Shown here: positions 2,653 to 62,889 of the stretch, piece after piece | Numbering within the stretch: position 1 is the first letter of the stretch | Layout: every line of letters begins with the position of its first letter | Origin: Ophiura sarsii | Taxonomy: Eukaryota; Echinodermata; Ophiuroidea; Amphilepidida; Ophiuridae | Direction of reading: 5' to 3' | Length of the DNA stretch: 64,000 nucleotides | NCBI GenBank assembly: GCA_035610835.1 | Contig: CM069441.1 | Coordinates: 102,173,606 to 102,237,605, forward strand | Translations under genes and position numbers: made by a program | Notes under the pieces: generated by a model | What the model saw: only the letters and a program-made list of their open reading frames with translations | Told to the model about the DNA's origin: nothing | The model's database searches: none

Positions 2653-3165
2653 CATAATAAGTGAGCATTGCTATCTACCCCTGATGGCACAGCAACAGTA
2701 TGTAATAAGTGAGCATTCCTATCTACCCCTGATAGCACAGCAACAGTATGTAATAAGTGAGCATTGCTATCTACCCCTGATGGCACAGCAACAGTATGTA
2801 ATAAGTGAGCATTACTATCTACCCCTGATAGCACAGCAACAGTATGTAATAAGTGAGCATTACTATCTACCCCTGATAGCACAGCAACAGTATGTAATAA
2901 GTGAGCATTACTATCTACCCCTGATAGCACAGCAACAGTATGTAATAAGTGAGCATTACTATCTACCCCTGATGGCACAGCAACAGTATGTAATAAGTGA
3001 GCATTACTATCTACCCCTGATAGCACAGCAACAGTATGTAATAAGTGAGCATTGCTATCTACCCCTGATGGCACAGCAACAGTATGTAATAAGTGAGCAT
3101 TACTATCTACCCCTGATAGCACAGCAAAAGTATGTAATAAGTGAGCATTGCTATATACCTCTTGT
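2653..3165. repeat. 48-bp minisatellite, about 10-11 copies
   Basis: The unit is 48 bp: TAATAAGTGAGCATT, then a variable base, then CTATCTACCCCTGAT, G or A, GCACAGCAACAGTA. Copies differ mainly at two sites: G, C or A after GCATT, and GATGGC versus GATAGC. Because 48 is a multiple of 3, a 16-residue repeat stays open on both strands (190 and 156 codons). This is a by-product of the period, so I do not call a protein. The last unit decays at 3150-3170. Confidence 0.92.
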
Positions 3166-4335: not shown

Positions 4336-4343
4336 ATTAGTGT

Positions 4344-4391
4344 TTAGGTTGTTAAAGTGTTTAGCATTTAAACACTTCTAATAACCTAAGT
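4344..4391. repeat. Imperfect hairpin
   Basis: TTAGGTTGTTAAAGTGTTTA is followed closely by its imperfect inverse TAAACACTTCTAATAACCTAA. It may be the core of a fold-back element or chance AT-rich symmetry. No flanking duplication was identified. Confidence 0.5.
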
Positions 4392-5868: not shown

Positions 5869-6390
5869 TGAGAAATTGAGCTTATTCAAGCTTATATTGA
5901 TAAGACACTGACACTAATGTGTGCAAAGCATGCAACAATTAGCAATTTTAACACTAGAATGATCCAGTCACCCGTCATTCTGTCATTACATCAACCAAAT
6001 CAAAAATACAGTATTGCATCATTGCAAAATGGAGGTAATTTAGCTAACTATCCAAATATAATGTCTAGCTGTAAGACAAACTAATGTAATGCTTAGTATA
6101 CAGACTGTAAGACACAATATATACTAAAACCGTATTAGAAATATGTTTCGTTTCATTTTTGTTTTGCATCACAAGGAACAAAAACGTTTTCTTTTGTTAC
6201 AAAAACACTTTGTTTTGGGTTAAATTGATGAAATAATGGCAGAGATGTGGCCAATTTTAGGAGCTATAGCTGCAAAAATTGAGCTTATTCAAGCTTATAT
6301 TGATGAAACACTGACACTAATTTGTGCAAAGCATGCAATAATTGGCAATTTGAACACTAGAATGATCCAGTCACCTGTCATTCTAAGCCA

Positions 6391-6409
6391 CCTCCCCCCC
6401 CCCCCCCCC
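6391..6409. repeat. Poly-C tract in tandem copy 2
   Basis: A run of C lies at the same position as the C tract at about 7210-7222 in copy 3, so it predates the duplication. The two tracts differ in length. Confidence 0.85.
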
Positions 6410-7635
6410 CTGCTTCCACCACCTAAGCTTTGGATCCATGTCTGTGAAAGCATTGCATGTGATGCATCACGAAGACAATAGATAGAATGTAAATATTTAT
6501 GAAATGCAGGGCAACTTTTTCATACCTGAATGTCTCACCTTCCTTCTTGTGAGCCCCAGGAAATGGGTCTTGGTATTTCCTTTAACAAGACATTTGTATG
6601 TATGCGAAGTCGGAGTGTTCGTAATGACACTGTGTGTAGGAATAATAATTACTCATTTAAAAGAATTACTGCTCGAAACTGCCATTGTTAATTCCTTATT
6701 AGATCTGATTGGTTGCTTGTAGAATTACAATATTTCTTACTGTGATCACTGGTTTGCTATGTTGCGGGCTAGTGTTTTTTTTTATGAGTCCACTCCCTGT
6801 ATATAAAGTCACGTATGTCAGGAATTCAATAAAATATTATATTACATCAACCAAACCAAAAATACAGTATTGCATCATTGCAAAAAATGGAGGTAATTTA
6901 GCTAATTATCCAAAAGTATTGTCTAGCAGTAAGACAAACTAATGTAATGCTTAGTATACAGACAGTAACATACAATATATAGTACAATTTAAAACCGTAT
7001 TAGAAATAGTTTTCAGTTCATTTTTGTTTTGCATCACAAGCAACAAAATCGTTTTCTTTTGTTACAAAAACACTTTGTTTGGTGTTAAATTGATGAAATA
7101 ATGGCAGAGATGTGGCCAATTTTAGAAGCTATAGCTGCAAAAATTGAGCTTATATTGATGAAATTGGCAATTTTAACACTAGAATGATCCAGTCACTTGT
7201 CATTCTAAGCCCCCCCCCCCCCTGCTTCCACCACCTAAGCTTTGGATCCATGTCTGTGAAAGCATTGCATGTGATGAATCACGAAAACAATAGATAGAAT
7301 GTAAATATTTATGAAATGCAGGGAAACTTTTTCATAACTAAATGTCCACCTTCCTTCTTGTGAGCCCCAGGAAATGGGTCTTGGTATTTCCTTTAACAAG
7401 ACATTTGTATGTATGCGAAGTCGGAGTGTTCGTAATGACACTGTGTGTAGGAATAATAATTACTCATTTAAAAGAATTACTGCTCGAAACTGCCATTGTT
7501 AATTCCTTATTAGATTGGTTGCTTGTAGAATTACAATATTTCTTACTGTGATCACTGGTTTGCTATGTTGCAGGGCTAGTTTGTTTTTTACGAGTCCACT
7601 CCCTGTATAAAGTCACGTATGTCTGGAATTCAATA

Positions 7636-7887
7636 TGTGACGCGATCAAGAGGAATGAGTCGGATGTCGGGGAATCCCAAATTGAGATATGGCCAATTCA
7701 AAATGGCGGCTTACATAAGTTTTGATGGAAATTCATGTATACAATTTGACATAACTTTGGAACAAAACGTTGTACCGACATGGGGTTTTCAGTTTATGAA
7801 AGCTCTAGGTGTCTTCTTTAAAACCGTAATACAAACTCATTTTCGACCAAGGTCGACATCCGACTCATTCCTCTTGATCGCGTCACA
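7636..7887. mobile_element. TA-flanked MITE, 252 bp
   Basis: The ends are TGTGACGCGATCAAGAGG and its inverse, with inverted arms of ~35 bp, flanked by TA at 7634-7635 and 7888-7889. The sister tandem copy at about 6820-6850 lacks it and shows the uninterrupted ATTCAATA context. A second copy lies at 30454-32762, inverted relative to this one. No coding capacity was seen. TA duplication suggests a Tc1/mariner-type mobiliser, but the termini are not a family I can name. Confidence 0.88.
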
Positions 7888-7984
7888 TATTATGTCTATT
7901 ACATCAACCAAACCAAAAATATTACATCAATGCAAAAAATGGAAGTAGGTAAGCTCACTATCCATAAGTATTGTGTAGCAGTAA

Positions 7985-8599
7985 GGCTATATTAAAAAAA
8001 TTCTTTTGTCTCAAAGCTCCCGCGCGTGTTAGTTAAAGGTAGATGACCCGATCACATTCCGATTTTCAACTTGAAGTTTTCTATTCTACATGAAAGGTCA
8101 TCCTTAAAAAAGTTGTGTTCCAAAGTTTGAGTTGCATAGCTCTAATGGTTCTTATTTTAGACGCACTAGATGCTGTGAACTGTACCCATTGAGTAGTACA
8201 CAAACTATATCGGTGGTTACCACCATTCGCGGTAATTCGACGTTATTTCATCGATTTCTCCGTAATTATACCGATTTAGGCCGTCAAATCTCAGTATGAT
8301 GATGAGAAAAATACGAGCTTTCATATGATATGAAAATCTTCGTATGTTTGAAATAATTCTGTGTTACGAAAATGTGATCGGGTCATCTACCTTTAATTGA
8401 TGCGCGTTAGAAAAGTTTCACCAATTTTTCAGATTTTCATTGATCACATCATTCTATAATATACAAAAGGTCACTTTTACAAGGATTTCGATATTTTATA
8501 TTTATAAATTTGTTTAAAAAACAACTTAAAAAAACCAGTATTTCGCATTAGGTTTTGAAAAACTGAAGAGCTTTGAGACAATTTTTTTTTAATATAGCC
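7985..8599. mobile_element. TAA-flanked MITE (PIF/Harbinger-like), with nested insertion
   Basis: The ends are GGCTATATTAAAAAAA and its inverse ending AATATAGCC, with GTCTCAAAGCTC blocks just inside, flanked by TAA at 7982-7984 and 8600-8602. The sister tandem copy reads AGCAGTAAGACAAACT, the exact empty site with a single TAA. Three-base TWA duplication and GG...CC ends are typical of PIF/Harbinger. Without the TTAA element nested at 8037-8392 it would be ~255 bp. A related copy is at 36626-36929. Confidence 0.9.
8037..8392. mobile_element. TTAA-flanked MITE family 1, copy A (356 bp)
   Basis: It begins AGGTAGATGACCCGATCAC and ends in the inverse, directly flanked by TTAA at 8033-8036 and 8393-8396. 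It sits inside the TAA-flanked element. The related element at 36626-36929 has TTTATTGATGCGC where this one is interrupted, which gives an approximate empty site. TTAA duplication is the hallmark of piggyBac-type transposition. There is no transposase, so it would need one in trans. A second copy lies at 20820-21163. Confidence 0.9.
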
Positions 8600-8824
8600 T
8601 AAGACAAACTAATATAATGCTCAGTATACAGACTGTAACATACGATATATATACTACAATATAAAAAACCGTATCAGAAATATTTTTCATCTTCATTTTT
8701 GTTTTGCGTCACAAGCAACAACATTTCCGTTTGTTACAAAAACACTTTGTTTTGTTAAAATTGATGAATAAAATAATGGCAGAGATGTGGCCAATTTTCA
8801 ATGCTATAGCTGCAAAAACCCTCG

Positions 8825-11029: not shown

Positions 11030-12414
11030 AAATCATCTCCAGTGCCAGCGCTAGCATCAACATTTGGAGAGGGGGAGACAAAAATCTGGTGGGTAGGGTG
11101 GGGCAGACAAAAAAATAGGGGAAAGATGCGCGTAAAGCATATGAATATGTTTGGCTTTTAATGTCAAAATTACTTTTTGATGTTTGAGGACTTGACTGGG
11201 GGGCATCCCCCCCCCCCCCCCCCCCAATGCATCAGATCAACATGTAGAAAGAATTTGTAAACAAATTCTGAAATGTTTCTTTTCAAATTAAGGTATCAGA
11301 AGAAAAGAGGATGCTCTCTAATAGGATTTAAATAACAATTAATGTTAACGATCGGCAATGTGATTTGAGCGATAATCATGCACCATTGTTATTCCTTCTG
11401 TATCTACTATTTCTATGTTTGAATCTAATACCCTTCGTGCAATCGCTATGCACTCTCCGCGCACACGCAGATAACGTTGAGCAAATGTATATTAAGAACC
11501 TACTAGTAACGCAGTACGACAAGGCGGGAGGGGAGGCATGCGAGGGACATAAGAATGTTTAGAGTTTATAATTGGAAGAAGTATAACTTCTTTCTGGCAT
11601 AGGCCTATATAAAATCCAATATTGATCGGAAATAAAGTGATAGCTTTTCAATAAAATATTGCTCAAAAGTACATACCAAATCGCACCAAATGGGTTCGAA
11701 AATTGAAGAAGAAAAAAATCCAATTCAGACTCCCCCGTTCGAGCTTTTAAACAATCTACTTAAATCAAGAAAATATCAGTATATATTGCTCAACTTCTTT
11801 CTTACATTGTTAAAAACAAAATATGAATTGGAAATGAAGATGTGGCTTCTCAATAAAATGTTGGTGCCCCCCCCCCCCCCCCCCGACTCCCCCCTGTTGG
11901 AGCTTTTAAACAATCTGTACCTAAATCAAGAAAATATCATATGCACAACTTCTTTCTTGCATTGATAAAAAAAAATGATTGGAAATGAAGAGGTGGCTTT
12001 TAGATAAAATGTTGGTTAAAAGTATACACCAGATCGTTCCAAATGAGTTCGAAAATTGAAGGGACCCCCCCCCCCCCCCTCAGACTCACCCCTGTTAGAG
12101 CTTTTAAACCATCTTAATTTAAATTAAGAATATATCAGTATAATATGCTCAACTTCTTTCGTGCATTGATAAAAACAAAATATTTATTGGAAATGAAGAG
12201 GTGGCTTTTCGATAAAATGTTGGTCAAAAAGTATACACCAGATCGCACCAAATGAGTTCGAAAATTGAAAAAGATTCTACTTCTGAGGGGCGCACATCCA
12301 CCCTCAGACTCCCTCCTGTCCGAGCATAGCTTGGAGGGCGGACCAGCACAATTTCATTTTTGAGCCCCCCCCCCCCCCCCCCCCCCCCCTAAAACTTGGC
12401 TGGATCCGCGCCTG
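11030..12414. mobile_element. hAT-like repeat region with C tracts and ~160-200-bp subrepeats
   Basis: The right end at 12414 reads, on the minus strand, CAGGCGCGGATCCAGCC, resembling hAT ends of the CAG-GGCGGATC type. From 11640 to 12290 several subrepeats share GAGTTCGAAAATTGAA, GAGCTTTTAAACAATCT, AAATCAAGAAAATATCA and GAAATGAAGAGGTGGC, separated by long C runs. The AGTCTGAGGG...GGATGTG block near 12290-12330 (minus) also occurs inside the hAT-type element at 31413-32306, linking the two. I found no matching 8-bp duplication, so the left boundary is unsure. Confidence 0.6.
11206..11225. repeat. Poly-C tract
   Basis: An uninterrupted run of about 20 C. Similar runs occur at about 11869-11884, 12066-12079 and 12365-12389. 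Their lengths in an assembly may be unreliable. Confidence 0.9.
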
Positions 12415-26402: not shown

Positions 26403-26426
26403 GTCGTTTGTGTGGCGGTGTAAAGC

Positions 26427-27683
26427 ATGGAAATATCCAGTATGCCGAGTAAAGGGGTACCTGTTTCTGAGGAAAGTGGATTGACTTCTACGACAGACGA
26501 TCAGAAGAAGTCGTCTGCCGCTGACAGCAGGCAGAGGAATCATGCTGGAAGGCCAAATTTAAATACCGATACCAGTTTTGATTCAGAGGAACAGATGCAG
26601 GACAAGAAATGTGAGGCGTGGAATCGTCAAAACGTAAACCGTGAAAAAAATTTGATGAAGGAGGGCCAGGCTGGTGATGAAGGGAGCGTGGCAAAGGACG
26701 AGGAAGCCACAAAGAAAGTTTTGAGAACTCAGGTTAGTGTACGCAGTGGCGAGGCTGACACAGAGGAACCTAATAACAATGTCAACCCTGTGTCGGAATT
26801 AGCGGGACGGAAATTATCCACAACTCTGCCATTGGAGACTATCCCGGAGAACGGGAGCGAGAATGTTGAGCAATATGATGGCGGTAAGTGTTCTGGTGAA
26901 GCTGTGCCATCTGATGATAGTGCTGGAAATAAAGCCCATGAGAGGGCAGGGCAGGTAAATACGCCCAGTAAGAGGAAATTACAGTCCGAAGGTGAGGATA
27001 AGTCTCAGAAGAAAGGCAATCACAAGAAGGGAGTGAAATTTGACGATAAGACCACGGAATTGGTTATTATACCTTCCGATCACGAGTCGGATCAGGACAG
27101 TTGTGATAGTAATAAAACGAAGGATATACAAGACATGTGTCCCACCAAAACTGGGATTAAATCGACAGCATCCAAAGTTGTGTCATCCAAAGTTTGTAAA
27201 CCGGAGCAACGTAACTCTTTGAAGAGGAAGAAGAAGAAAGGCGATAAAAGAACTTCGGGTGAGGATGGGGATGATGACGAGGTGATCTGGGTAAGACAAG
27301 ACAGTATTCCCCAATTGGAAGAACTAGACCTGAAGGAGACTCAACTGGGGAAGGGAAATGATTCAAAAGTGGAAGAAGTGACTTTGAAAGAGACAAAACC
27401 TGAGAAAGAAGAGGTGTCAACACCGGATCAAAGCAGGACCGATCTGCAGGGTCAGCTGGCAGATGGCGCAGCGGTCCAAGTCGTCGTAGCCAATGGAAAG
27501 GCTCGGCAATGCCAGCCCATGAAGAAGAAGGACGAGGCGGCGATTCGGGAGCAGCTCGTAGAGATCAATGTGGATCTACTCTGTGAAGGCTACCTGCAAC
27601 CTTGTAGTTCCCTTGACAATAATTGCAACTCGGAAGAACAAAGGCTGCTCGGAGATCACCCATTACCGGAAGCACTGGAAGAT
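26427..27683 (+). CDS. First coding exon of an unrecognised charged, disordered protein
   Basis: This is the best coding evidence in the window: 419 codons open, far longer than any other frame. ATG at 26427 is in a good context (A at -3, G at +4), and an in-frame TAA at 26421-26423 fixes it as the start. The exon follows an acceptor at 26401-26402 and ends at the donor GTAAGT (27684), in phase 0; the unspliced frame would stop four codons later. The product is rich in Lys, Glu, Asp and Ser with few hydrophobic stretches, so it is probably mostly disordered. Basic patches (SKRK near residue 181, LKRKKKKGDKR near 265-275) resemble nuclear localisation signals. KKGVKFDD near residue 201 fits the RVxF docking motif for protein phosphatase 1. 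Near the C-terminal end KKKDEAAIREQLVEINVDLL could be a short helix. No signal peptide or membrane segment. I do not recognise the family, and downstream exons were not found in the window. Confidence 0.8.
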
Positions 27684-27689
27684 GTAAGT
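27684..27689 (+). promoter_or_regulatory. 5' splice site of the coding exon
   Basis: GAT|GTAAGT is a near-consensus donor. Using it leaves exactly 419 codons in phase 0. Reading through adds only VST before a stop, which supports splicing over a single-exon gene. Confidence 0.7.
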
Positions 27690-27696
27690 ACTTGAT

Positions 27697-30450: not shown

Positions 30451-30829
30451 ATATGTGACGCGATCAAGAGGAATGAGTCGGATGTCAACCCTGGTCGAAA
30501 ATGAGTTTTTAATACAGTTTTAAAGAAGACACCTAGAGCTTTCAGAAACTGAAAACCCCATGTCAATACGACGTTTTGTTCCAAAGTTATGTCAAATTGT
30601 ATACACTAGCGGCACGCCCGTCCTGCGGACGGGCTCTCCCGCTAGGGAGTAGGGCCTACCAGATAGACACCTACAAAAATAAAGTGTTGAAAATTTATAA
30701 CGAAACACATAGGAATAGAACAATATTTAAAACATTTTTGTTTTATATCAAAAGGTTTTGTAGCCTAATTCAAAAGTTTTTAAATTAGTCAATTTAAAAA
30801 AAAATTGGAAAATTACCCCCCGCCCGCAC

Positions 30830-31404
30830 ATGCCCCGTGGCATATTTCAACACCAAGGCCTAAACCTTAACCATCTCCCGTACCCCACCCGTCCTTCCCC
30901 CTCCCTGTCCCCTCCCGGCCCGCCCCCGTCCAGTGGCATATCCGTTACGCAATTTAGCATCACATTTTTTCATTAACCCCCTGTCTCCCAAACCACATTA
31001 CATCATTACACACAACCCCCATTCGTCACCGCCCCGCCCGCCCCTCCCCGTGACATACCTCAAGCCCAAAGCCCAAAGTTCCCCGCCCGCAATTTATCTC
31101 AACGCCAAGGCCTAACCTTAACTATCTCCCGTAGCGCGGCGTACTTCTCCAATATTTGTCCGCCCGCGTGTCACATACAGTATCAAATCCCACATCTGAC
31201 ACTCGTTACGCAATTTAATAATACATTTCTTTATTAACCCCATCCCAAACTACATAACCATACCATAACCTAGGCCCTAAAGGGATCATTACACACAACC
31301 CCTAACCGCCCCGCCCCCGCCCCGTGGCTTATGCAACCCCAAGGCCTAAACCGAAACCAACTCCCGTGGCGCAGCGTATTTCTCCAATATTTGCCCGCCC
31401 GCGT
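30830..31404. repeat. C-rich subrepeats inside the Helitron
   Basis: Two to three imperfect units of ~200-280 bp share CCAAGGCCTAA-CCTTAAC, CTCCCGT-GCGC, CTCCAATATTTG-CCGCCCGC, CGTTACGCAATTTA and ATTACACACAACCCC. Base composition contrasts with the AT-rich flanks. Confidence 0.8.
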
Positions 31405-31412
31405 GTGTAGGG

Positions 31413-32306
31413 CAGTGGCGGCTCGTGGGTGTTTTGAGGCCCGGTGGCGATTTTATAGCTATGCTATGCCAGGGGGAGTCTGAGGGGGGATGTGCCCCCC
31501 TCATAAGTTAGAAAATTTTGAAAATATGCAACGAAAATGGTGCAATTTGGTGCATACTTTTAACCAAATTTTCGACGAATATGTGTTCAAATAATCAAGA
31601 CAAAATACATGGGAGGCTATCAACTCTTACATAATATTAAATAACCTCACTAGACCGGGGGACGGGGGTGCATATTTGATATATTCCACCACGCGCCCTG
31701 CATTTTAATAATGTACCCTATCGTGTCTGCATGGAATCGCCCATCCCAGCTTGCTTATGCAGCCACGCTCTGCACTATCGGTATCGTGCTAGACTCTAAT
31801 GTTACAGCGTAGTGCTAAACATCATGCCGATATGTAATCTGTGGAAAAGACTAGACTTGCAGTGCTGGAACACCATCAGCACTGGTACATGCCTGTATTG
31901 TGGCGTTGTTGACTATGGACTTCCTACTACTAGTACTAGCCACTAGTTTTCATTAAGAAACAAGAGCACTACCAGTGCAAACTCCTATTAGAACCGGTGA
32001 AATCAGCTAGCGCATAGCTGCCCTAGCATTGTGTTGGGTGGGTTTATCAGTGTATGATTTCTATGCAGTTGATGTGGGGGCGACTCGCTCGTGCTGTATA
32101 CAGGGCCGTATACTTTTGGTTAATCAGCGCTGACTGTTTGAACGCAAGGGTTTAAACCTGGTTTAATTTAATTTCATATATTTTCGGGATATTTTCATCA
32201 ATATCTTGGTTGGTTTGTGTGAGGACTGGAGGGTTTTGGTTTTTTTTGCTTTGGAAATTTCAACCGGTGCTAAGAACCGGTAGAACCAATTGACCAGCCG
32301 CCACTG
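31413..32306. mobile_element. hAT-type element with perfect 8-bp target duplication
   Basis: The ends are CAGTGGCGGCTCGTGG and the inverse GACCAGCCGCCACTG, directly flanked by GTGTAGGG at 31405-31412 and 32307-32314. Eight-base duplication plus CAGNGGCGG ends is characteristic of the hAT superfamily. The 894-bp body contains AGTCTGAGGGGGGATGTG and GGTGCAATTTGGTGCATAC, related to the C-tract region at 11.0-12.4 kb, and no transposase frame. It is nested within the Helitron. Confidence 0.93.
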
Positions 32307-32599
32307 GTGTAGGGGTGCGTGGGTGTAGTGCGTGTGCGCGTTTATTTTGCATGGCGCACTGCTGCTCGCTATGTGTAACGCTCGCCGACTGCATGGTTAC
32401 AGTGTACGCAGAGAAAAACAAACATGGCCCGTAGAAATTAGTCTCAAAAGCCGGGCTGAAAAGGCCTAAATTGGACATCATTTTGCTCATATCTCGGTCA
32501 ATTCTGTACGGTTTTCGGTCATTTATAGCTTATAACCCGTCTCAAGACATCATCTATTATCAGTGCAATATTCACGGCTTTAAGACGCAAAATGAGAAA

Positions 32600-32641
32600 G
32601 CCTTTTCAGGATACATACATACTCACATACATACATACAAC
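32600..32641. repeat. CATA microsatellite near the Helitron 5' end
   Basis: ACATACATACTCACATACAT and similar tetranucleotide units just inside the Helitron terminus. Confidence 0.85.
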
Positions 32642-32769
32642 ATACGGTGAATTATAGTAAGATGAATTTCCATCAAAACTTATGTAAGCCGCCATTTTGA
32701 ATTGGCCATATCTCAATTTGGGATTCCCCGACATCCGACTCATTCCTCTTGATCGCGTCACATATAAAT

Positions 32770-48600: not shown

Positions 48601-49338
48601 ACTGGTGTAGGGATGGGATAGTGAGGAGCATAAGATGGCGATTAGGATTAAGTAAATAGCAGAATTTGTATGACATCAGGGGAGTGTCGACAAAACATAA
48701 ACTTAAGATTACGATCATACAAATTACGAAGCAAAAATATGATAACTGGTGCATTTTAATCGGTCAATTCTTTTTATACTATTCAGATGGCAATCTGGTC
48801 CAATTTCACTGACAAAAATTCAGTTACTTCTGTCTGAAAATTCTCTCTATTGTAATTCATTAACAATGTACAAAGGATAAATCAGTGAACTAAGTTCTAG
48901 CATAGTGCCTCTGTCTACTCTCTATGCAAAGTTATTCTTTCAAGGGGCCTATCTACAATCCTTGACTGTAAGATTTGGAAGGAATAGGTTGATTACAAAT
49001 ACGTGCTGAGGATGCTAATGTATCACATGTACTGTACATAGTTTAGCTTGTTATGTACACCTATCTATGTTGATGGAATGGGCTGTCGGGGTTTGGTTTA
49101 GCTCACTGACTGTGCTTAGATAAGATGGTAAAATAACCATCATCAAGACTTTATTGTTGTAAAGAGGGTGATCATTCGCGTCACAATTGTGTTTGTACGT
49201 GGTCGTTTTAAACAGCATGCTTTAGTATTTTCACTTTCGAGACTGCTAAGGCAATTTGACTTTATTGTTGTACAAAAGGGTGGTTCGCCTCATAAATTAA
49301 ATTGCTGTTTTAAAGGTACAATTTGTGTGTATCACTTA

Positions 49339-49759
49339 GAGTGTGTTTCTGCTGGGGAAGAAACCGCTAATAAATGCTAAGTTTGCCCAGTAGAAACAGG
49401 CAGAACCCGGCAATAATCGGTATTTTTGGTAATCCAAAAAAACCTTCACAAACCAGGTTTGGAACAGGCAATAATCGGCAATAAGCCCAATAGAAACAGA
49501 AAGGCGATTCTTAGCGGTTTGCGCCGTGAACCGTTTCACGCTGGGTAATACACATTATTGTGAAGCAATCTTTTTCAGGTGCGGTGGCATTGTTAGATAT
49601 TACAAAAGGTCAAATTTCGTGGCCCATCGACTAGGATCAATAAACTTAGCGGTAACTTTTCGCGAGTAGAAACAGGGGGGGGGGGGTTAAAAACTGACCG
49701 ATTGAAACTTAGCGTTTATTAGCGTTTACTTTTTGCAGTGGCCCAGCAGAAACACGCTC
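49339..49759. mobile_element. TTA-flanked Harbinger-like MITE (421 bp) in unit 1
   Basis: The ends GAGTGTGTTTCTGCTGGG and CCCAGCAGAAACACGCTC are flanked by TTA at 49336-49338 and 49760-49762. Sister units read GCTTAGAGATT-CCTG without it, near 53487, 59517 and elsewhere. The interior has AATAATCGG and CCAGTAGAAACAGG iterations and a G run at 49676-49687. TTA duplication fits PIF/Harbinger. Confidence 0.9.
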
Positions 49760-50841
49760 TTACAGATTGCCTGCACTTCTAAGTAGAAGGGAGTTTAAAT
49801 CAATCACCTATTCAAGATTGACACTCACAATCTTGGTAATAACATTTCATCTCTATATCATAGAGATGGGCTATGATAAATGACATGACCATCATACATC
49901 ATAGCCATGCATATGTAGGTTACGATAATGTTTGAAAGCATTCAAGTCTAGAACTGAAACCATGTGATTTATCTTGGCATGAATTGAATAAGGTACCCCT
50001 ATGTGATCAAAGTTAGTTATGTTGATGCGTTAGAAGTTAAATAAAATAATCAATTTGGTATTTCTCCAAATTTAGAGTAGATTGCATGTACCAATCCAAT
50101 CAGCCTAGGTATATATAAAGCAATTGGGGATTGAATATTTTCAACAAAATACAGAAAGCCTTTATTTCATCATTTTGTGTGCTGTGTATATTATAGTCAA
50201 TGTTGTTGTACCTGGAGAATACAAAAAATCAATCTGCAATTTGAAATATATCCAAGAGTTAAAGCAGTCTCGAATTGACTGTTTTTTCAACAACAAAAAG
50301 AAATGCTTTTGTCAAAACTCTTATGCCCCCTACTTGACTCGAAAAGTATTTGTACGTGAAAAGCCTGATGTCTTGTTGTATCAATTGCATCCACAGGCAA
50401 ACTCGCAAAGTGAAGCGTGATTCCCAGATGTGTGCCAGATTAAATTGGTAGAATGGGCTCTGTTTTCTGCTTTTCCATCCCCCTATCCTTCCCTCCAACC
50501 ATCCACCTATCTTTACCAATGGCTTCAGGGAGAGATCTGCTTCCTGATAATTTACCATGGATGTGTGCTATCACCTCCAATGAATAGCTGCATGACTCAT
50601 TCTAGCTATTTCAGATAGGGGACCTACTTTCTGCTTATGTATCAGCAATGTAAAAGTTGAGGTGATGACTCGAAGGAATGGATGAAATAACAAGATATTT
50701 GAACACAAAGTGGTGTTTCTTGGCCTTTCTTGCATGCTGCCAATCATTGATAAAAACAGCCTGTATCTGATGACATGTATTGATGGGTACAAGACTCAGG
50801 GTACTTACTACACATTATCTATCACCTGTCTTTATTATTAA

Positions 50842-51334
50842 CCCTTTGAACCCGGAGTTATTATAAGGGTTCGGTACACCCACCCTGACTTCTCCGGGGG
50901 TAAAATGCTAAATATAGTACACCTATATCATCCGTAATATATGTTACCGATGATAGAGGGCAGTATGCCATTGTACTACACGTATAACGTAACCTATTTA
51001 TAACATAAAAACGTCCGGTTTTATCGCCAAAATTGCCAATCATGACCGTAAAACAATGCATCCCTGTCTACCTGAGAATCATCTACGCCATATTGTGTTG
51101 CATATTCATCCAATTTTGCGCTATTTTTGACTGTTTTCTTCAGCTAAATGACATCGAATCACAACGAAAACCTTGCGAAACAATGTATTTCACATCGGGT
51201 GAACATCACATGACTTTCAAGTCATATGACCACTCAGTCATATGATCAATGTGTCATCTGTTCGCTCAGGTCGATTTATCGACCTATCGGGTTATAGACG
51301 TTCTCCGATAAATCGACCTATCGGGTTCAAAGGG
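50842..51334. mobile_element. TTAA-flanked MITE family 5 (493 bp) in unit 1
   Basis: The ends CCCTTTGAACCCGG and CGGGTTCAAAGGG are flanked by TTAA at 50838-50841 and 51335-51338. Sister unit 3 shows one uninterrupted TTAACAC at about 57524. CGATAAATCGACCTATCGGG is repeated near the right end. CCC-type ends at TTAA are what piggyBac itself has. The 70-codon frame inside has no known motif. Confidence 0.92.
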
Positions 51335-51887
51335 TTAACACTTAGTGTGTGCTCTGTAGGGGACTGGAGTCTATAATTCAACATCGACACAACCTTCTAT
51401 TAGATAAATCCTGTATTTGTATAAAAAGGAAGAAAATGACACCGATATCCTGACCAGAATAGTAAACAAAAGATAATTCACTGATGCGCCACATTTGTCA
51501 GAAAGTTTCATCCATTTATATCGATGACCACTTCTGTCTAATTTTTGAAGAACATTTTACATATGGTTTCATTTTTTGATGTGATAGACTTTTAGGATAT
51601 AGATTTGATATCCATCACCCCTTCGGCTATGCTCATGGACATGACCTTATTTGAATTGTAAAGATAGACTCATCTAAAGAAAATTGTTTCTGAACCTCTT
51701 TTGAATATGTAAGTACAAAATGCTCTATTCTCCAATATGAGAGGATATTTGTTTAAGCAGGTGTTTGTTTGAAATTAGATGGCAAAAGCTGTTGATATTG
51801 TTTGTGATGGGATTAAGCAAAATGAGTGAGAAGTTGCGAAAATTGATTTTGAGATATAACCAGACAGAGGATAGATTTGTTTATGTT

Positions 51888-52108
51888 TTCTGTTTAGAGA
51901 ATAATGACTGCGTAACAACTGTTTTCGCGAATTTGTTTTAAAATCAGCGGTTTTTGTTCTGGTCTAAGGAATTGTCCCGAGGGGCGCAGCCCCCGAGGGA
52001 CAATTCCGAATGAACAGAACAAAACCCGAGGATTTCATCTTTCATCTAACGATTAATTTGATTGGAACGCACTTGGAACGGAGCTATCGCGATTATTCAT
52101 GAAGTTAT
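51888..52108. mobile_element. Insertion with GC-rich hairpin, in unit 1 only
   Basis: Relative to unit 3 (about 58082) ~215 bp are extra. They contain the near-perfect hairpin GGAATTGTCCCGAGGGGCGC / GCCCCCGAGGGACAATTCC at 51968-52007, bracketed by TTTTGTTCTG and its inverse CAGAACAAAA. The outer ends are not clearly inverted and the duplication is not resolved. Confidence 0.6.
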
Positions 52109-52283
52109 GAATGTTTTTTAAACCCTTCTGTAGTAATATCTTTAAAGTTAATTGTCCATATTTATGTGGTTTTCTGCAAGATGTCGCTTAACGAATGGCA
52201 AATACAATCAAGGAGAAAACTAAAAATGTTATACTATCGACTTCAGACTCATTTTGCTTGATCGCATCATATTTGATCTTCTA

Positions 52284-52491
52284 TAGTTTGATCAGTTCCA
52301 AATTGGCAAGCCTCCTTACAACTGCGAATTAATACAGCAGGGTGTAGGCGTACATGAATGCAACAAGTGCACTGTGCATTAATGTGTGATGCATGGTTTT
52401 GGCCAAAATCGTGTGCGTTCACTTTGATTACTTTTGTGAGTGGAGAGATAAAAGCAGCATATTTCTTGTCAATTTTGAACTGATTGACCTA
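52284..52491. mobile_element. TA-flanked MITE, CTATAG family, copy 2 (unit 1)
   Basis: TAGTTTGATCAGTTCC and GAACTGATTGACCTA are inverted, with TA outside (52282-52283, 52492-52493). The B-type units lack it: 54594 reads TCTTCTAGCAACT and 61670 the same, exact empty sites. Confidence 0.92.
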
Positions 52492-55400
52492 TAGCAACTT
52501 CCAGTGTGTCATTTTGACAACCAGTTTGTCTTGTGCCATGATGTACTACTGTTGCAAAAAGTGTGTATTGTAACATTTACAAGATGTGACCCACATCAAT
52601 AAACCTGCAACTAGTGCAAATTTTAATGATACTGAAAAAGTGGTGATTTTGGCATTTTGTGGAAAAGTATGAATCAAATTTGGTTGAATTGTAGCTAAGA
52701 AATCAATATTGATCAGAAGAGGGATGGGGATTAGAGGGGAGGGGGAATGTATGTAGGGTAGGTAGGAGTGCAATAATTTTGTGAAACTGTCTGGAACAAT
52801 AAGTTCAAATTTGGAATTATTTCTATGAATTTTTTTAATTATTTTTCTTTGATTCCTGATGAAACTCATTTCTAATAATTGTGTCTTTTGATGGGACAGT
52901 GTATATCGTATGATAATTGAACATTTACAGATTGACCCCAAAGCATGGTGACTCTTTGCCTCTCAATTTTTGTATGTTTGATGGGACTGTGTCAACCGTA
53001 CATTAATTACAAATTTACAAAGGAATAAATCAGTGAACCCAAAATATCACAGTGCCTCTTTCTACTCTCTCTATGTAAAGTTATTCTTTCAAGGGGCCTA
53101 TCGGTGCAATCGTTGATTTTAAGATTGGGAGGGTACAGGTTGATTACAAACACGTGCAGACAGTGCTAATTTATCACAATATACCTAGTTAAGCTTGTTA
53201 TTATACACACCTATCTATGTTGATCAAAAAGGCTGTCAGAGTTTGCTTTAGCTCATAGACTGTGCTTAGATAAGATGGTAAAATAACCATCACCAAGACT
53301 TTATTGTTGTGTAAAGAGGATGATCATTCGAATCACAATTGTGTTTGTACACAATCGTTTTAAACAGCACACTTTAGTATTATCACTTTCCAGACTGTTA
53401 AGGCAACAAGACTTTATTGTTGTAAAAAAGGGTGGTTAGCCTCATAAACAAAACTGCTGTTTTAAAGGTACAATTTGTACATATCGCTTAGAGATTACCT
53501 GTGCTGCGAAGTAGAAAAGGAGTTTTGATCAATCAACCTAATCAACATCAACACCCACAATTTTGGTAATAGAATACCAATACCATAGAGATAAATGACA
53601 TGAGCATCATACATCATAAACATGCATAGGCAGATTACGATAAGGTTTGAAAACATTAAGTCTAGGACTGAAACCATGTAAATTATCATGCCTTGAATTA
53701 AATAAGGTACTCCTATGTAATCAAAGTTATGTCGATGTGTTAGACATTATATAAAATGATCAATTTGATATTTCTCCAAACTTTGAGTAAATTGCATGGA
53801 TCAATCTAATCAGCCTAGATAAAGTAATTAGGTATTGAATATTTCAAACATAACAACAACAAAAAAGCTTTTATTTAATCATTTTATATGTATAGTCAAT
53901 GTTATTGTATCTATAGATTACCCACAAAAATCAATCAGTATTATTTGAGTATTCAGCGTTCTGCAATAGCCAAGCTGTAAAGCAATCTAAGATTGGCTGT
54001 TTTTCAACAACAAAAAGAAGCGCTTTCGTCAAAGCTCTTATGCCCCTACTTGACTCGCAATGTATTTGTACGTGAAAAGCCCAATGGCTTATTGTATCAA
54101 TTGCATCCATAAACACACACGCAAACCAAAGCGTGATTCCCAGATGTGTGCCAAATTAAATTGGTAGAATGGTGTCTGTTTTCTGCTCTTCCTCCCCCTT
54201 CCCCCTCCTTCCCTCCAACCATCCACCTATATTTACCAATGGCTTCGGGGACCACAGGAATGGATTTGCTTCCTGATAATTCACCAAGGGTGTGTGCTAT
54301 CACCTCCAATGAATAACTGACTGACCCATTCTAGCTATTTCAAATAGGGTTTTCATTTTTCTTTCTTTCTGGGACAGATGTTTAGGATATAGATTTGAAA
54401 CCCTTTCGCCCATGGACATGACCTCCTATTTGAATTGTAAGATAAACTCATTTAAAACTGTATGTTTCTGAACCTCTTTTGGTATGGATATGTATGAACA
54501 AAATGCTTTATTCTCCTATAAGAGGATGTCTATCTGAGCAGGTGTTTGTTTGAACTTAGATGGTAATAGCTGTTAATATCATTCTATCTTCTAGCAACTG
54601 CTACAATGTAGTGTGTCATTTTGACAACCAGCTTGTCTTCTACTGTGACATTCTGATGTGGTGTATATTGTGACATGTTGTTTTAAATTACAAAATGTGA
54701 CCCACATCGATAAAACTAGAACAAGTGTATGTTTTTTATAATGCTGAAAAAGTGGTGATTTTGGAATGCTTTAAATTTTTTGTTATCTTCCATATCAAAT
54801 CTTTGAAATGGTATTCCTTTACATATTACCTTGTTTATCATTAAGAAACATATTGGAGGAACTTGCTCCCTCCCTGCCTAATGGGCCATCTAAGTATGGT
54901 AACATTCTGATTGTTTGTGACCCCGTTCAGCCGGCAAAGTGGTCCATTGTGACTGGAAAATGTAAATGAAACAATTCTAAGATAAATGTCATACAGCAGG
55001 CTTACTTTTGACGACTTGTTTTTTAATTTATTTTTATTTGACATGCACAACACCATGTCTGCCGTTTCTTTTCACGTTTTCCCTCTGAACAGTTGCAGTG
55101 TGTTGGCTTTAGCCACATTCTTTGAGAAACTGACTTATCCCTGAAAACTGACTTATCCCTGTTGCACCATTAAGCTGTACAATGTACAAGTCTGACTTGA
55201 AAGTCATGGTATAATATCTAGGGATTAAACCTTGATTATAAGATGTAGGGGGTTTAGAGAGCTGTAGGAATGTGGGTTTTTAGGGATGGAGGGCACACAT
55301 AGTTTTGTGTTTTTGATGGGATGATTACTATATTATTCAATAATTACATATTTTACAAAGAAATAAGTCAGTAAACCCAAAATAGTGCAGTGCCTCTTTC

Positions 55401-55829
55401 TACTCTCTCTAACATGTCTAATATGCAAAAGTTATTCTTTCAAGGGGCCTATCGGTGCAATAGGCGATAGAAGGATACAGGTTGATTACAAACATTAGCT
55501 GACAGTGCCAATGTATCACATGTATACCTAGTTTAGCTTTGTTATATACACACCTATATATGTTGATGGAAAAGGCTGTCATGGTTTGCTTTAGCTCAGG
55601 TACTGTGATTAGATAAGATGGTAAAATAACCAACATCAAGACTTTATTGTTGTAAAGACGGTGATCATTCGTGTCACAATGGTGTTTCTACAGGGTTGTT
55701 TTTAGCAGTACACTTGATCATTTTCACCTTAGAGACTGTTTAAGGCAACAAGTCTTATTGTTGTTAAACAGGGTGGTTCGCCTCATAAATTAAACTGCTC
55801 TTTTAAAGGTACAATTTTTGCATATCACT

Positions 55830-56430
55830 TACGGCGTGTTTAGTACCAGGACATGGACTCGATGCTACACTGTGTCTACTTCAAAGCCTAATGGGAACGC
55901 GAAAATTATAAGGGGTCTCGATGCTACAACCAGGATGTCAAATCGAGTCTACCATCAATGATGTAATCTCGATGTTATGACGGTACCAAATGCCTTATGA
56001 GGACGCAATTTGTATGCTGACTTGGACCTAGGGTGGTTTGCCTCATCAATTAATCTGCTGTTTTAAAGTTACAATATAAGCATATTTTTACGGCATGTAA
56101 ATTGAAAATCTGGTTTCTGCACCTACTCCGGCCTCCTTCAAGAACAGACTGAGAGTCCTTCCCATTGGAAAAGAGGACTAATCAACCAAGTATACCAAGT
56201 AAGTATACAAGTAAGTATTCCCACTATGCCTGTTTATAGTACCAGGTTGTGGAATCGATGCTACATTGTGTCTACTTCAAAGCCTAAATAAGTGGAACGC
56301 AAAATAAGTGGGTCTCGATACTACAACCAGGATGTAGCATCAAGACCACATCAATGAGGTAGTCTCTATGGTATAACATGGTACCAAATGCCTAATGAGG
56401 ACTTGATTTGTATCAGTCCACAAAGCTATC
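55830..56430. repeat. Two ~390-bp subrepeats with TCGATGCTAC blocks, unit 3
   Basis: GTACCAGGA/TTGTGGA-TCGATGCTACA, TGTGTCTACTTCAAAGCCTA, GGTCTCGAT-CTACAACCAGG, CGGTACCAAATGCC and GAGGACGC-ATTTGTATG occur in order twice (from 55841 and 56237). The same pair is in unit 5 at 62898-63345 and absent from units 2 and 4. The fragment near 35250-35345 is related. Confidence 0.85.
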
Positions 56431-58256
56431 ATTTTCTGTAGCGGGAACTTAGAAAATTTCCTGTCACTGCCTGTGGTCCGAAGTAGAAAGGTTTTTTTAA
56501 TCAATCACCTATTCAAGATCAACAAAATGTTATCCCAATATCATAGAGATGGGCTATGATAAATGACATGAGCATTCATACTATATCAACCATAGGTAGA
56601 TTACAATAAAGTTCACAAGCATGAAGTCTAGGACTGTAACTGTGTAATTTATCTTGCCATGAATTGAATAAGGTACCCTATGTAATCAAAGTTATGTCGA
56701 TGCATTTGATGTTATATAAAATAATCGATTTGGTATTTCCCCAAATTTTGAGTAAATTGCATCCATCAATCCAATCAGCCTAGGTATAAAGCAATAGGGA
56801 ATTGAATATTTCAACAATAATAGAAAAACACTTTTTATTTAATCGGCATTTTGTGTTAATATAGTCAATTTTGTTGTATCTGGAGATTAACAAAAATCAA
56901 TCTGTATATATTTGAGTATTCAGCATTCTGCAATAGCCAAGCTGTAAAACAATCTCAAATTAACAGTTTTTCAATAACAAAAAGAAACCCTTTTGTCAAA
57001 ACTCTTATGCACCCTACTTGACTCGCAGAGTATTTAACGCAAAAAGCCCTATGGCTTGTTGTATCAATTGCATCCACAGGCAAACTCGCAAAGTGAAGCG
57101 TGATTCCCAGATGTGTGCCAGATTAAATTGGTAGAATGGGCTCTGTTTTCTGCTTTTCCATCCCCCTATCCTTCCCTCCAACCATCCACCTATCTTTACC
57201 AATGGCTTCAGGGAGAGATCTGCTTCCTGATAATTCACCATGGATGTGTGCTATCACCTCCAATGAATAGCTGCATGACTCATTCTAGCTATTTCAGATA
57301 GGGAACCTACTTTCTGCTTATGTATCATGTCAAAAGTTGAGGTGATGACTCGAAGGAATGGATGAACTAACAAGATATTTAAACACAAAGTGGTGTTTCT
57401 TGGCCTTTCTTGCGTGCTGCCAATCAGTGATAAAAACAGCCTGTATCTGATGACATGTTTGTATTGACGGGTACAAGACTCAGGGTACTTACTACACATT
57501 ATCTATCACCTGTCTCTATTATTAACACCTTGTGTGTGCTCTGTAGGGGACTGGAGTCTATAATTCAACATTGACACAACCTTTTATTAGATAAATCCTG
57601 TAATTGTATAAAAAGGAAGAAAATGACACTGATATCGTGACCAGAATAGTAAGCAAAAGATAATTCAATGATGCGCCACATTTGTCAGACAATTTCATCC
57701 ATTTATATCGATGACCACTTCTGTCTAATTTTCAAAGAACATTTTATGGTTTCATTTTTTTTCTGTGATAGACTTTAAGGATATAGATTTGAAACCCATC
57801 ACCCCTTCGGCTTTGCTCATGGACATGACCTTATTTGAATTGTAAGGATATACTCATCCAAAAAATGTTTGTTTCTGAACCTCTTTTGATCATGGATATG
57901 TAAGAACAAAATGCTCTATTCTCCAATATGAGAGAATCTTTGCTTAAGCAGGTGTTTGTTTGAAATTAGATGGCAAAAGCATTTTATAATGTTTGTGATG
58001 GGATTAAGTAAAATGAGTGAGAAGTTGCGAAAATTGATTTTGAGATATAACCAGATAGAGGATAGAATTTCTTTTGTTTTCTATTGTTTTTTAAACCCTT
58101 CTGTAGTAATATCTTTGAAGTTAATTGTCCATATTTATGTGGTTTTCTGCAAGATGTCGCTTCACAAATGGCAAATGCAATCAAAGAGTAAACTAAAAAT
58201 GTTATACTATCGACTTCAGACTCATTTTGCTTTATCTCATCACATTCGATCTTCTA

Positions 58257-58418
58257 TAGTTTGATTAGCTTTAAATTGGTGAGCCTCCTTACAACTGCAA
58301 ATTAATACAGAATGGTGTAGGCATACCCGAACGCACACTTGTTGCGTTCACTTTGATTACTTTAGCACGGAGAGATAAAAACAGCATATTTCTTGCCAAT
58401 TTGGAACTGATTGAACTA
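58257..58418. mobile_element. TA-flanked MITE, CTATAG family, copy 3 (unit 3)
   Basis: The same element at the same site as copy 2 (52284-52491), shorter by an internal deletion of ~45 bp. The shared site shows the insertion predates the duplication that made units 1 and 3. Confidence 0.92.
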
Positions 58419-59371
58419 TAGCAACTTCCAGTGTGTCATTTTGACAACCAGTTTGTCTTGTGCCATGATGTACTACTGTTGCAAAAAGTGTGTATTGTAA
58501 AATTTACAAGATGTGACCCACATCAATAAACCTGCAACTAGTGCACATTTTAATGATACTGAAAAAGTGGTGATTTTGGCATTTTGTGATAAAAGTATGA
58601 CTCAAATGTGGCTGAACTGTAGCTAGGAAATCAATATTGATCAGAAGAGGGATGGGGATTAGAAGGCTTTGGGAGGGGGAATGTAGAGTAGGAAGGAATG
58701 CAATAATTTTGTAAAACTGTCTGGAACAATAAGTTCAAAATTTTGAATTATTTCTATGAAATATTCTTATTATTTTTCTTTGATTTCTGATGAAACTTGT
58801 ATCTTATAATTGTGTGCCTTTTGATGGGACGTACGATAATTGAACATTTACAAAGGAATAAGTCAGTTAACCCCAAAGCACGGTGCCTCTTCACCACTCA
58901 ATGTTTGTGTGTTTGATGGGACTGTGTCAACCGTACATTAATTACAAATTTACAAAGGAATAAGTCAGTGGACCCAAAATATCACAGTGCCTCTTTCTAC
59001 TCTCTCTCTATGTAAAGTTATTCTTTCAAGGGGCCTATCGGTGCAATCGTTGATTTTAAGATTGGGAGGGTACAGGTTGATTACGAACACGTGCAGACAG
59101 TGCTAATTTATCACAATATACCTAGTTAAGCTTGTTATATACAGACCTATCTATGTTGATGGAAAGGGCTGTCAGAGTTTGCTTTAGCTCATAGACTGTG
59201 CTTAGATAAGATGGTAAAATAACCATCACCAAGATTTTATTGTTGTAAAGAGGACGATCATTCGAATCACAATTGTGTTTGTACACAATCGTTTTAAGCA
59301 GCACACTTTAGTATTATCACTTTCTAGACTGTTAACGCAACAAGACTTTATTGTTGTAAAAAAGGGTGGTT

Positions 59372-59463
59372 GTATATATTCTTTGTATCATCACAAACCG
59401 CTGTGATCTATATGAAATGGCGGTATATAAAAGCTTATTGTATGTATGTATGTATGTATGTAT
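59372..59463 (+). mobile_element. Short LINE/SINE 3'-end insertion with TATG tail, unit 4
   Basis: Inserted in GGGTGGTTCGCCTC of sister units, with GGTT on both sides (59368-59371, 59464-59467). It contains CCGCTGTGATCTATATGAAA and TGGCGGTATATAAAAGC, then a TATG microsatellite. This is the kind of 3' end left by a heavily 5'-truncated LINE or its SINE partner. Confidence 0.75.
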
Positions 59464-59641
59464 GGTTCGCCTCATAAATTAAACTGCTGTTTTAAAGGTA
59501 CAATGTGTGCATATTGCTTAGAGATTGCTTGTGCTGCGAAGTAGAAAAGGAGTTTTGATCAATCAACCTAATCAACATCAACACCCACAACTTTGGTAAT
59601 AGAATACCAATACCATAGAGATAAATGACATGAGCATCATA

Positions 59642-60739
59642 CAGGGTGTCCCAAAAGTCTATGCACGTTTTTGAAGAGTCATATCTCATAAAATATAAAT
59701 CATATGGTATAAATTTAACCATATTTTGATAGACGAGATTTGGGAAATTATTTTGATACCAAACACAACCCTATTGGTGAACCACCAACATTATAAAACT
59801 GGTTGAAAGTTTTTGGCCGTGTGAGACCTATCCATACCAAGAACCACACATTGTTGCTAAAACCAGGTGCGCATATATTAACGGTATGAAAGCAACGTTG
59901 CGCATTAGTTACAGTTCACTGCTTACCTTGAAACATTAATGTTATAACCGAACTCGGTCACTCACAACATAAATAGGCGCAGTAGACAACATTGCACAGC
60001 AAAAGTCTTCATTCAAGATGGTTTACAGCATAGATAATCGAATACAAATTGTATGGTTCTACGCTGAAACAAACTCAGTTCAACTTACTCAACAAAGTTC
60101 ATAACACATTGAAAGTGAAACGCGCACCAGGAAGAATATCCATTCTGAAGTTGGTGGATACATTTTTGAACACAGGAACTGCATGATTTGTCTCGATGTG
60201 GTAGAAAAAAGCTTGATCAACAAGTCACATTGATGTTATAAAACCAAAGAGATCTATTCGCCGACTTTCCGCAGAAAACAAGATTAAAAGATCCACTGTT
60301 CACAGAATTTTGCGTAAGGACTTGAAGAAGTTTCCATACAAGATTCAGATCAAACAAAACATTTAAACTAGATTTCACTATAGAAACGAAAATTATGTGT
60401 TATACAGTTTGTTATTATGAATGGGATCACTGTAAGGTAAAATTTTAAATATTACATTGGATGGATCACTTTCCGTGTAACCAACTCTACCCGTCTTTTT
60501 GTTAATCTCAATAGGTATGGATTTATGAACTTTATTCCTCCGAAGTATAAAATTACATTTTTGCAGTAATACATATTTTACTTCTAGGGTGGCATTACAA
60601 ACGGATGTTACTCCAATGTTTGGATCAAAATTATTTCCCACATCTCCTCTTTCTAAACATGTAGTCATAATTTCAATACGACTTATATTTTGTGAAATAC
60701 AAAGCTTCAAAGTCGTGCATAGACTTTTGGGACACCCTG
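59642..60739 (+). mobile_element. Tc1/mariner-type transposon with broken transposase (1,098 bp)
   Basis: The ends CAGGGTGTCCCAAAAGTC and inverse are flanked by TA (59640-59641, 60740-60741). Unit 2 near 53610 has the single-TA empty site CATCATACATCAT. Plus-strand frames after 60019 read MVYSIDNRIQIVWFYAETNS and, after stops and frame changes, RAPGRISILKLVDTF and KRSIRRLSAENKIKRSTVHR followed by ILRKDLKKFPYKIQIKQ. These match the N-terminal helix-turn-helix part of IS630/mariner-like transposases, which ends KFPYKIQ. Several stops make it non-functional. The DDE catalytic part is absent: 60370-60710 is unrelated sequence carrying a minus-strand frame. Confidence 0.9.
60393..60710 (-). CDS. 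Open frame of unknown origin inside the transposon (105 codons)
   Basis: Intact from ATG to stop on the strand opposite the broken transposase and filling the place where the catalytic domain should be. The sequence (for example CLERGDVGNNFDPNIGVTSV and VLLQKCNFILRRNKVHKSIP) has mixed, soluble-protein-like composition, but I recognise no family. It could be captured host exon sequence, part of a second element inserted here, or chance. No promoter or splice signals were assigned. Confidence 0.3.
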   Translation of the reverse strand: MKLCISQNISRIEIMTTCLERGDVGNNFDPNIGVTSVCNATLEVKYVLLQKCNFILRRNKVHKSIPIEINKKTGRVGYTESDPSNVIFKILPYSDPIHNNKLYNT

Positions 60740-62889
60740 TACATCATAACCGTGCATAGCCAGATTACGATAATGTTTGAAAGCATAAATTCTAGGACTG
60801 AAACAAATGTAATTTATCTTGCCTTATATGTAATCAAAGTTGTGTCGATGTGTTAGACATTATATAAAATGATCAATTTGATATTTCTCCAAACTTTGAG
60901 TAAATTGCATGTATCAATCTAATCAGCCTGGATAAAGTAATTAGGTATTGAATATTTCAAACATTACAAAAAAGAAGCTTTTATTTAATCATTTTATATG
61001 TATAGTCAATGTTATTGTATCTAGAGATTACCCACAAAAATCAATCAGTATTATTTGAGTATTCAGCGTTCTGCAATAGCCAAGCTGTAAAGCAATCTAA
61101 GATTGGCTGTTTTTCAACAAAAAGAAGCGCTTTCGTCAAAGCTTTTATGCCCCTACTTGACTCGCAAAGTATTTGTACGAGAAAAGCCCAATGGCTTATT
61201 GTATCAATTGCATCCATAAGCACACATACAGAGCGAAGCATGATTCCCAGATGTGTGCCAAATTAAATTGGTAGAATGGTGTCTGTTTTCTGCTCTTCCT
61301 CCCCCTTCCCCCTCCTTCCCTCCAACCATCCACCTATCTTTACCAATGGCTTGAGGAGGCTACAGGGATAGATTGGCTATCACCTCCAATGAATAGCTTA
61401 CTGACCCATTCTAGCTATTTCAAATAGGGTTTTCAATTTTTTCTTCTTCTGGGACAGACGTTTAGGATATAGATTTAAAACCTCTCGCCCATGGACATGA
61501 CCTCTTATTTGAATTGTAAGATAAACTCATTTAAAACTATATGTTTCTGAACCTCTTTTGGTATGGATATGTATGAACAAAATGCTTTATTCTCCAATAA
61601 GAGGATGTCTATCTGAGCAGGTGTTTGTTTGAACTTATCTGGTAATAGCTGTTAATATCATTCTATCTTCTAGCAACTGCTACAGTGTAGTGTGTCATTT
61701 TGACAACCAGCTTGTCTTCTACTGTGACATTCTGATGTGGTGTATATTGTGACATGTTGCTTTAAATTACAAAATGTGACCCACATCGATAAAACTAGAA
61801 CAAGTGTATGTGTTTTATAATGCTGAAAAAGTGGTGATTTTGGAATGCTTATAATTTTTTGTTATCTTCCATGTCAAATCTTTGAAATGGTATTCCTTTA
61901 CATATTACCTTGTTTATCATTAAGAAACATATTGGAGGTACTTGCCACCTCCCTGCCTTATGGGCCTTCTACGTATGGTAAATTTCTGATTGTTTGTGAC
62001 CCCGTTCAGCCGGCAAAGTGGTCCACTGTGACTGAAAAATGTGAAAGAAACAATTCTAAGATAAATGTCATACAGCAGGCTTACTTTTGAGACTTGTTTT
62101 TTAATTTATTTTTATTTGACATTCACAACACCATGTCTGCCTTTTCTCTTCACGTTTTCTCTCTGAACAGTTGCAGTGTGTTGGCTTTAGCCATGGTCTT
62201 CGAGTAAACTGACTTATCCCTGTAGCACCATTAAACTGTACAACATACAACTTACAAGTATGACTTGAAAGTCATGGTATAATATCAAGGGATTAAACTT
62301 TGATCATAAGATAGGGTTTAGAGAGCTGTAGGGATGTGGGTTTTTAGGGATGGAGGGATCACAAAGTTTTGTGTTTTTGATGGGATGGTTACTATTATAC
62401 CATAATTACATGTTTTACAAAGAAATAAGAGAGTAAACCCAAAATAGCGCAGTGTCTCTTTCTACTCTCTCTCTCTCTAATATGCAAAATTTATTCTTTC
62501 AAGGGGCCTATCGGTGCAATAGGTGATAGAAGGATACAGGTTGATTACAAACATGTGCTGACAGTGCCAATGTATCACATGTACCTAGTTTTAGCTTAGT
62601 TATATACACACCTATCTATGTTGATGGAAAAGGCTGTCGGGGTTTGCTTTAGCTCACATACTGTGATTAGATAAGATGGTAAAATAACCAACATCAAGAC
62701 TTTATTGTTGTAAAGACGGTGATCATTCGTGTCACACTGGTGTTTCTTCAGGGTTGTTTTTAACAGCACACTTTAGCATTTTCACCTTAGAGACTGTTTA
62801 AGACACCAAGTCTTATTGTTGTAAAACAGGGTGGTTCGCCTCATAAATTAAACTGCTCTTTTAAAGGTACAATTTTTGCATATCACTTA

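Follow-up and report, generated by a model that had tools for sequence, protein, structure and literature searches.

What kind of element has split a short repeat in the genome of Ophiura sarsii, and in which order were the parts of the resulting nest assembled? In the 64,000-nucleotide stretch of contig CM069441.1 analyzed in this study (the window), three nested elements occupy positions 30452-32764: a TA-flanked miniature inverted-repeat transposable element (MITE) is split by a 2,057-bp insert, and this insert is itself split by an 894-bp element. The MITE was inserted first, a Helitron second, and a hAT-type element last; both this order and the canonical class of the Helitron, proposed in the first-pass annotation, are supported by the structural features compared below. 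The 2,057-bp insert is very probably a non-autonomous canonical (Helitron1-type) rolling-circle transposon, which was 1,155 bp long before the hAT-type element landed in it. The nest is made of ordinary, well-delimited, non-autonomous elements and holds no novel element type; the Helitron perhaps represents a new family of an already known kind. The window has 36.5% G+C (63.5% A+T), and repeats are abundant in it.

Intact and split copies of the MITE

The nest can be dissected by comparison with an intact copy of the MITE in the same window (252 bp, 7636-7887, plus strand), which has TA on both sides and 33-bp inverted ends. The split copy lies on the minus strand. One part with its flanking TA, 30452-30605, aligns to 7736-7895 reversed with 93.75% identity over 160 bp, and the other, 32663-32764, is covered by a perfect match (104/104 bp, 32662-32765) to 7633-7736 reversed; the two alignments overlap in the reference by 1 bp. 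Without the TAs, which are at 30452-30453 and 32763-32764, the MITE bases are 30454-30605 (152 bp) and 32663-32762 (100 bp), and in the alignment these halves rejoin into the reverse complement of 7636-7887: 252 bp, with zero gap and zero duplication. The unsplit copy defines the ends of the Helitron with a precision of 1 bp. The nest as a whole ranks three insertions in time.

The first-pass annotation had described a TA-flanked element matching 7636-7887 and split at A|T by a 2,057-bp insert, as reading and alignment confirm. Its further statement that removal of the insert restores the reference exactly is true of the junction, which shows neither gap nor duplication, but not of the sequence, because the two copies differ by nine substitutions. 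All nine lie to the left of the split, within 152 bp, and the 100 bp on the other side are identical between the copies (Fisher p = 0.013, computed post hoc for 154 versus 102 bp including the TAs). This lopsided distribution may be due to chance, a subfamily mosaic, or a conversion tract. The 33-bp end is present with zero mismatches at all four ends of both copies, the end at 30454, for example, being identical to the one at 7636. Since both copies are flanked by ATAT on each side, the exact MITE target duplication is uncertain.

The reference MITE is located inside one unit of a tandem duplication (5985-6831 versus 6841-7635, 88%), the other unit of which has no MITE near 6831. At this related unfilled site a TA is present, and the right side is AT-rich and diverged. 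The tandem duplication spans 5985-7985, and related pieces are found at 8600-8818. Weak matches to the 33-bp MITE end occur at 52239 and 58212 (seven and eight mismatches, respectively) inside repeated units and are possibly due to chance. In its TA flanks and intact 33-bp inverted ends the MITE is similar to TA-MITEs of the Tc1/mariner-like kind, and it may belong to that superfamily. One frame of the reference MITE gave nothing in Pfam up to E 0.1.

Ends of the Helitron and the empty site

The Helitron insert occupies 30606-32662 on the minus strand, as delimited by alignment to the unsplit MITE copy and by the junctions. On this strand, the 5' TC is at 32662-32661 and the 3' CTAG ends at 30606. 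The junctions read ...TTCA|TCTTACTATAATT...GTGCCGCTAG|TGTATAC..., that is, A|TC and CTAG|T. The MITE is split at 30605|32663, and the Helitron has no target duplication; its position can be shifted by 1 bp, since the insert begins with T at an A|T target. The end positions are set by the MITE homology, independently of the terminal motifs, and the chance of finding TC, CTRR, and A|T jointly is about 6e-5 in an arithmetic estimate with equal base frequencies, rising some fourfold if either strand and a 1-bp shift are allowed. The target is 75% A+T over 40 bp, compared to 63.5% window-wide. No terminal inverted repeat was found between the Helitron ends: exact complementarity between the first 40 nt and the last 120 nt extends over at most 5 nt, which is the commonest value in 2000 shuffles.

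A gap-filling or template-switch event at a break in the MITE could also have left an insert, with Helitron-like ends arising by chance. A single copy is seen, and the central array described below could be arbitrary filler DNA, as such an origin would allow. However, TC, CTRR, A|T, the absence of a duplication, and a correctly spaced hairpin all coincide at ends that are independently fixed by homology. The chance origin of the ends was rejected, and we consider it extremely improbable.

The 3' hairpin

The minus-strand TC start, the CTAG end, and a hairpin 10 nt before this end, all reported in the first-pass annotation, were borne out. The hairpin (30616-30634, minus strand), ending 10 nt before the end of the Helitron, is a GC-rich stretch of 19 nt, GCCCGTCC-GCA-GGACGGGC, with an 8-bp stem and a 3-nt loop. 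The last 60 nt of the Helitron fold (as DNA) at -18.9 kcal/mol (z -3.65), and one of 200 shuffles was equally good. Taken alone, the hairpin provides weak support. The window contains four perfect stems of 8 bp or more that are located 4-19 nt before CTRR|T, two of these being one palindrome near 4340-4380; in the shuffle control, the mean was 1.07 and the maximum 4 (30 shuffles; 468 CTRRT sites, both strands). Since such hairpins are not rare in the window, the evidential weight of this one lies in its coincidence with the homology-fixed ends.

The fold prediction adds a second tier to this structure (30606-30645, minus strand), an outer stem CTAGCGG/CCGCTAG that was overlooked in the otherwise correct first-pass description of the hairpin. 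The final seven bases of the Helitron, CCGCTAG, pair with CTAGCGG located 5' of the inner hairpin, which places the terminal CTAG in the predicted duplex. When the upstream stretch was shuffled 20000 times, a partner 7-mer for CCGCTAG arose by chance in 52 cases. When the inner hairpin and CTAG were fixed and the remainder shuffled, 61 of 2000 sequences folded at least equally well. Noticed post hoc in one copy, the predicted outer stem over CTAG is suggestive and would make this Helitron 3' end mildly unusual. If it recurs in other copies, it becomes testable whether the terminator hairpin, beyond pausing the helicase, has a second role in presenting the site of cleavage.

Interior of the Helitron

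Removal of the hAT-type element and one copy of its duplication leaves the 1,155 bp of the Helitron, composed of a 348-bp 5' part, a 589-bp array stretch, and a 212-bp 3' part, with 6 bp between the array and the duplication. The 5' part (32315-32662, minus strand) carries a (TGTA)n-like microsatellite that lies approximately 18 to 52 nt inside the TC terminus, and elsewhere in the window it shows similarity solely via this TGTA stretch (59438-59464). The central diverged tandem array (30818-31406, minus strand) has main-family spacings of 235-261 bp and is G-rich on the Helitron strand (G+C 0.543, GC skew +0.519). Five quadruplex-type motifs were found within 30883-31323 on the TC-to-CTAG (minus) strand of the Helitron, whose opposite strand has none. 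Both the microsatellite and the array had escaped the first-pass annotation. Thirteen open reading frames with 50 aa or more overlap the insert, the longest being 89 aa; nine of these were compared with Pfam up to E 0.1 and matched no family.

Class assignment

Canonical Helitrons start with TC, end with CTRR, insert at A|T without duplication, and carry a palindrome at a distance of 10-12 nt from their 3' end; Helentrons and Helitron2 elements are described by T-rich targets, by a hairpin at each end, and by inverted repeats that are subterminal or asymmetric (excerpts of PMC4067079 and PMC5148889). The insert has TC and CTRR ends, an A|T target without duplication, and no terminal inverted repeats, as do Helitron1 elements, and its palindrome of 19 nt, 10 nt away from the 3' end, agrees with the canonical one (16-20 nt, approximately 10-12 nt before the 3' end).

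The interior, on the other hand, recalls a non-autonomous Helentron of the HINE/DINE kind, in which a tetranucleotide microsatellite follows the 5' end, tandem repeats of 100-500 bp make up the center, and the 3' part has a palindrome. The (TGTA)n-like stretch, the array spacings of 235-261 bp, and the 3' palindrome match the layout of the oyster Cg_HINEs (PMC7492417, excerpt), and the similarity extends to the succession of a 5' part, a tetranucleotide microsatellite, central repeats, and a 3' palindrome in the HINE/DINE-1 elements of Drosophila and oyster (PMC4067079, PMC7492417, and PMC8268682, in excerpt). Such a microsatellite with central tandem repeats is frequent in Helentrons and HINEs but does not define them. 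The other Helentron features compared were not observed. The target is A|T and not T-rich or TT, and the termini are TC and CTAG. In contrast to HINE/DINE-1 elements, no subterminal inverted repeats and no 5' hairpin were found: a search for exact matches, the only kind sought, gave no subterminal inverted repeat longer than 5 nt, compared to 11-12 bp in Helentrons, and the first 60 nt of the Helitron fold at 0.0 kcal/mol and contain no exact inverted repeat of at least 6 nt. With subterminal repeats not found and the target wrong, the Helentron assignment was rejected as very unlikely.

Several observations weigh against the canonical assignment. A single copy of the Helitron is available, each of its ends being matched once in the window (at most seven mismatches per 28 nt and six per 24 nt, respectively), and neither a second copy nor a RepHel gene was found within the window. 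A protein search with the frame crossing the Helitron 3' end yielded no candidate sharing three words and no homologue, and a similar search with the MITE frame gave two candidates, neither of which scored, and again no homologue. Moreover, an AT target and possibly a TC start, without a CTRR end, are found in some Helitron2-like elements of Fusarium, where two such groups prefer this target (PMC5148889, excerpt). In Phytophthora, an element whose protein is Helentron-like combines canonical ends with A|T targets (PMC4067079, excerpt). Because of these Fusarium and Phytophthora exceptions, the structure of the insert does not fix the RepHel lineage. Our high confidence in a canonical Helitron stops short of certainty, since A|T insertion also occurs outside Helitron1 and only nine of the 13 open reading frames were tested.

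No exact match to the 3' hairpin end, the 5' end, or the array of the Helitron, or to one MITE end, was found in viral contigs, the 5' end was absent from the scanned prokaryotic genome contigs, and the 2.4-kb nest had no match in plasmid and phage collections; these collections cover prokaryotes, their plasmids, and viruses, and their silence says little about eukaryotic elements. A literature search by the exact end letters returned only matches to 10-base strings, judged unrelated. The element was not met in the literature searched, a silence that cannot show the family to be unnamed.

Comparison with Helraiser and proposed mechanism

According to the excerpts of PMC4778049, the active Helitron Helraiser has its TC linked to A and its CTAG to T, forms circular intermediates, and uses a 3' hairpin as the termination signal. 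Its targets are AT-rich, the AT dinucleotide being not absolute (46 of 1,751 insertions are elsewhere), and the 75% A+T target of the insert agrees with this preference. The 3' hairpin, of 19 nt and 10 nt upstream in our case, and the A|TC and CTAG|T junctions are common to the insert, Helraiser, and its bat relatives, as far as the excerpted descriptions go. Unlike Helraiser, the insert has no RepHel frame seen in it, and it contains a central G-rich array and a microsatellite. Further, the hairpin lies upstream of CTAG in the excerpted description of Helraiser, whereas the predicted outer stem of the insert includes CTAG.

From the Helraiser work we infer, by analogy, the enzymatic steps that could have led to the observed end state. 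A RepHel acting in trans, probably supplied by another element, would have nicked a donor copy at its 5' TC and displaced a single strand from there. Strand transfer would have halted at the 3' hairpin, followed by a cut after CTAG, and the product would have been joined between A and T inside the MITE, with the target bases left uncopied. Later, a hAT-type cut-and-paste transposase from elsewhere would have inserted the 894-bp element, making the 8-bp duplication.

The insert might also belong to a Helitron lineage that combines canonical ends and an A|T target with a Helentron-like interior (a 5' microsatellite and a central G-rich satellite array) and a two-tier terminator in which the CTAG cut site is itself base-paired, a possibility that we regard as tentative and rather doubtful. 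A layout with a microsatellite and an array is called usual for Helitrons in an oyster study (PMC8268682, excerpt), and this counts against the interior being new. If such a lineage exists, it would provide a variant termination signal and a further vehicle spreading satellite DNA. A link of rolling-circle elements with satellite DNA has been reported, and through its tandem array this Helitron would be a further, canonical-ended example of it.

The hAT-type element

The 894-bp element (31413-32306) has the ends CAGTGGCGG/CCGCCACTG, with a 14-bp terminal inverted repeat in which 13 of 14 positions pair (93% complementary). As noted in the first-pass annotation, it is flanked on both sides by GTGTAGGG; the left copy of this target duplication, read directly from the sequence, is at 31405-31412 and the right one at 32307-32314. 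Because of this 8-bp duplication within the Helitron, the insertion is later than that of the Helitron itself. CAG-type ends are a hAT trait. Other superfamilies, such as the P and Merlin types, also make 8-bp duplications, and no transposase is seen in the 894 bp, with the putative hAT assignment drawn solely from the duplication length and the short inverted ends; the frames overlapping the element that were among those compared with Pfam matched no family. However, the 8-bp duplication together with short inverted ends suits hAT elements, which have 8-bp duplications and inverted ends of 10-25 bp (PMC3942097, excerpt), and membership in a superfamily other than hAT is in our opinion quite unlikely. 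The element resembles non-autonomous hAT elements in both these features.

The hAT label of the first-pass annotation accordingly agrees with the 8-bp duplication and the 14-bp inverted ends. Overall, the observation made in that annotation is confirmed, and its interpretation is partly supported. In a minus-strand stretch at 11585-12400, 119 alignment columns show 78% similarity to 31457-31572, the left inner part of the hAT-type element. The stretch adjoins poly-G runs and tandem copies, and resembles a degenerate relative.

Other features of the window

Scans of the whole window with Rfam (gathering scores) and for tRNAs gave zero matches. The 423-aa open frame at 26424-27692, which matched no Pfam family up to E 0.01, has three relatives, the best with 58% identity over 99%, and is probably an exon of a host gene. 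A 48-bp tandem array at 2655-3159 (10.5 copies, 96% matches) is open in frames on both strands. Finally, the region 48855-64000, in which no gene was identified, is a large cluster of repeated units with approximately 70-95% identity between pieces; for instance, 53610-56085 and 60740-63138 are 90.5% identical.
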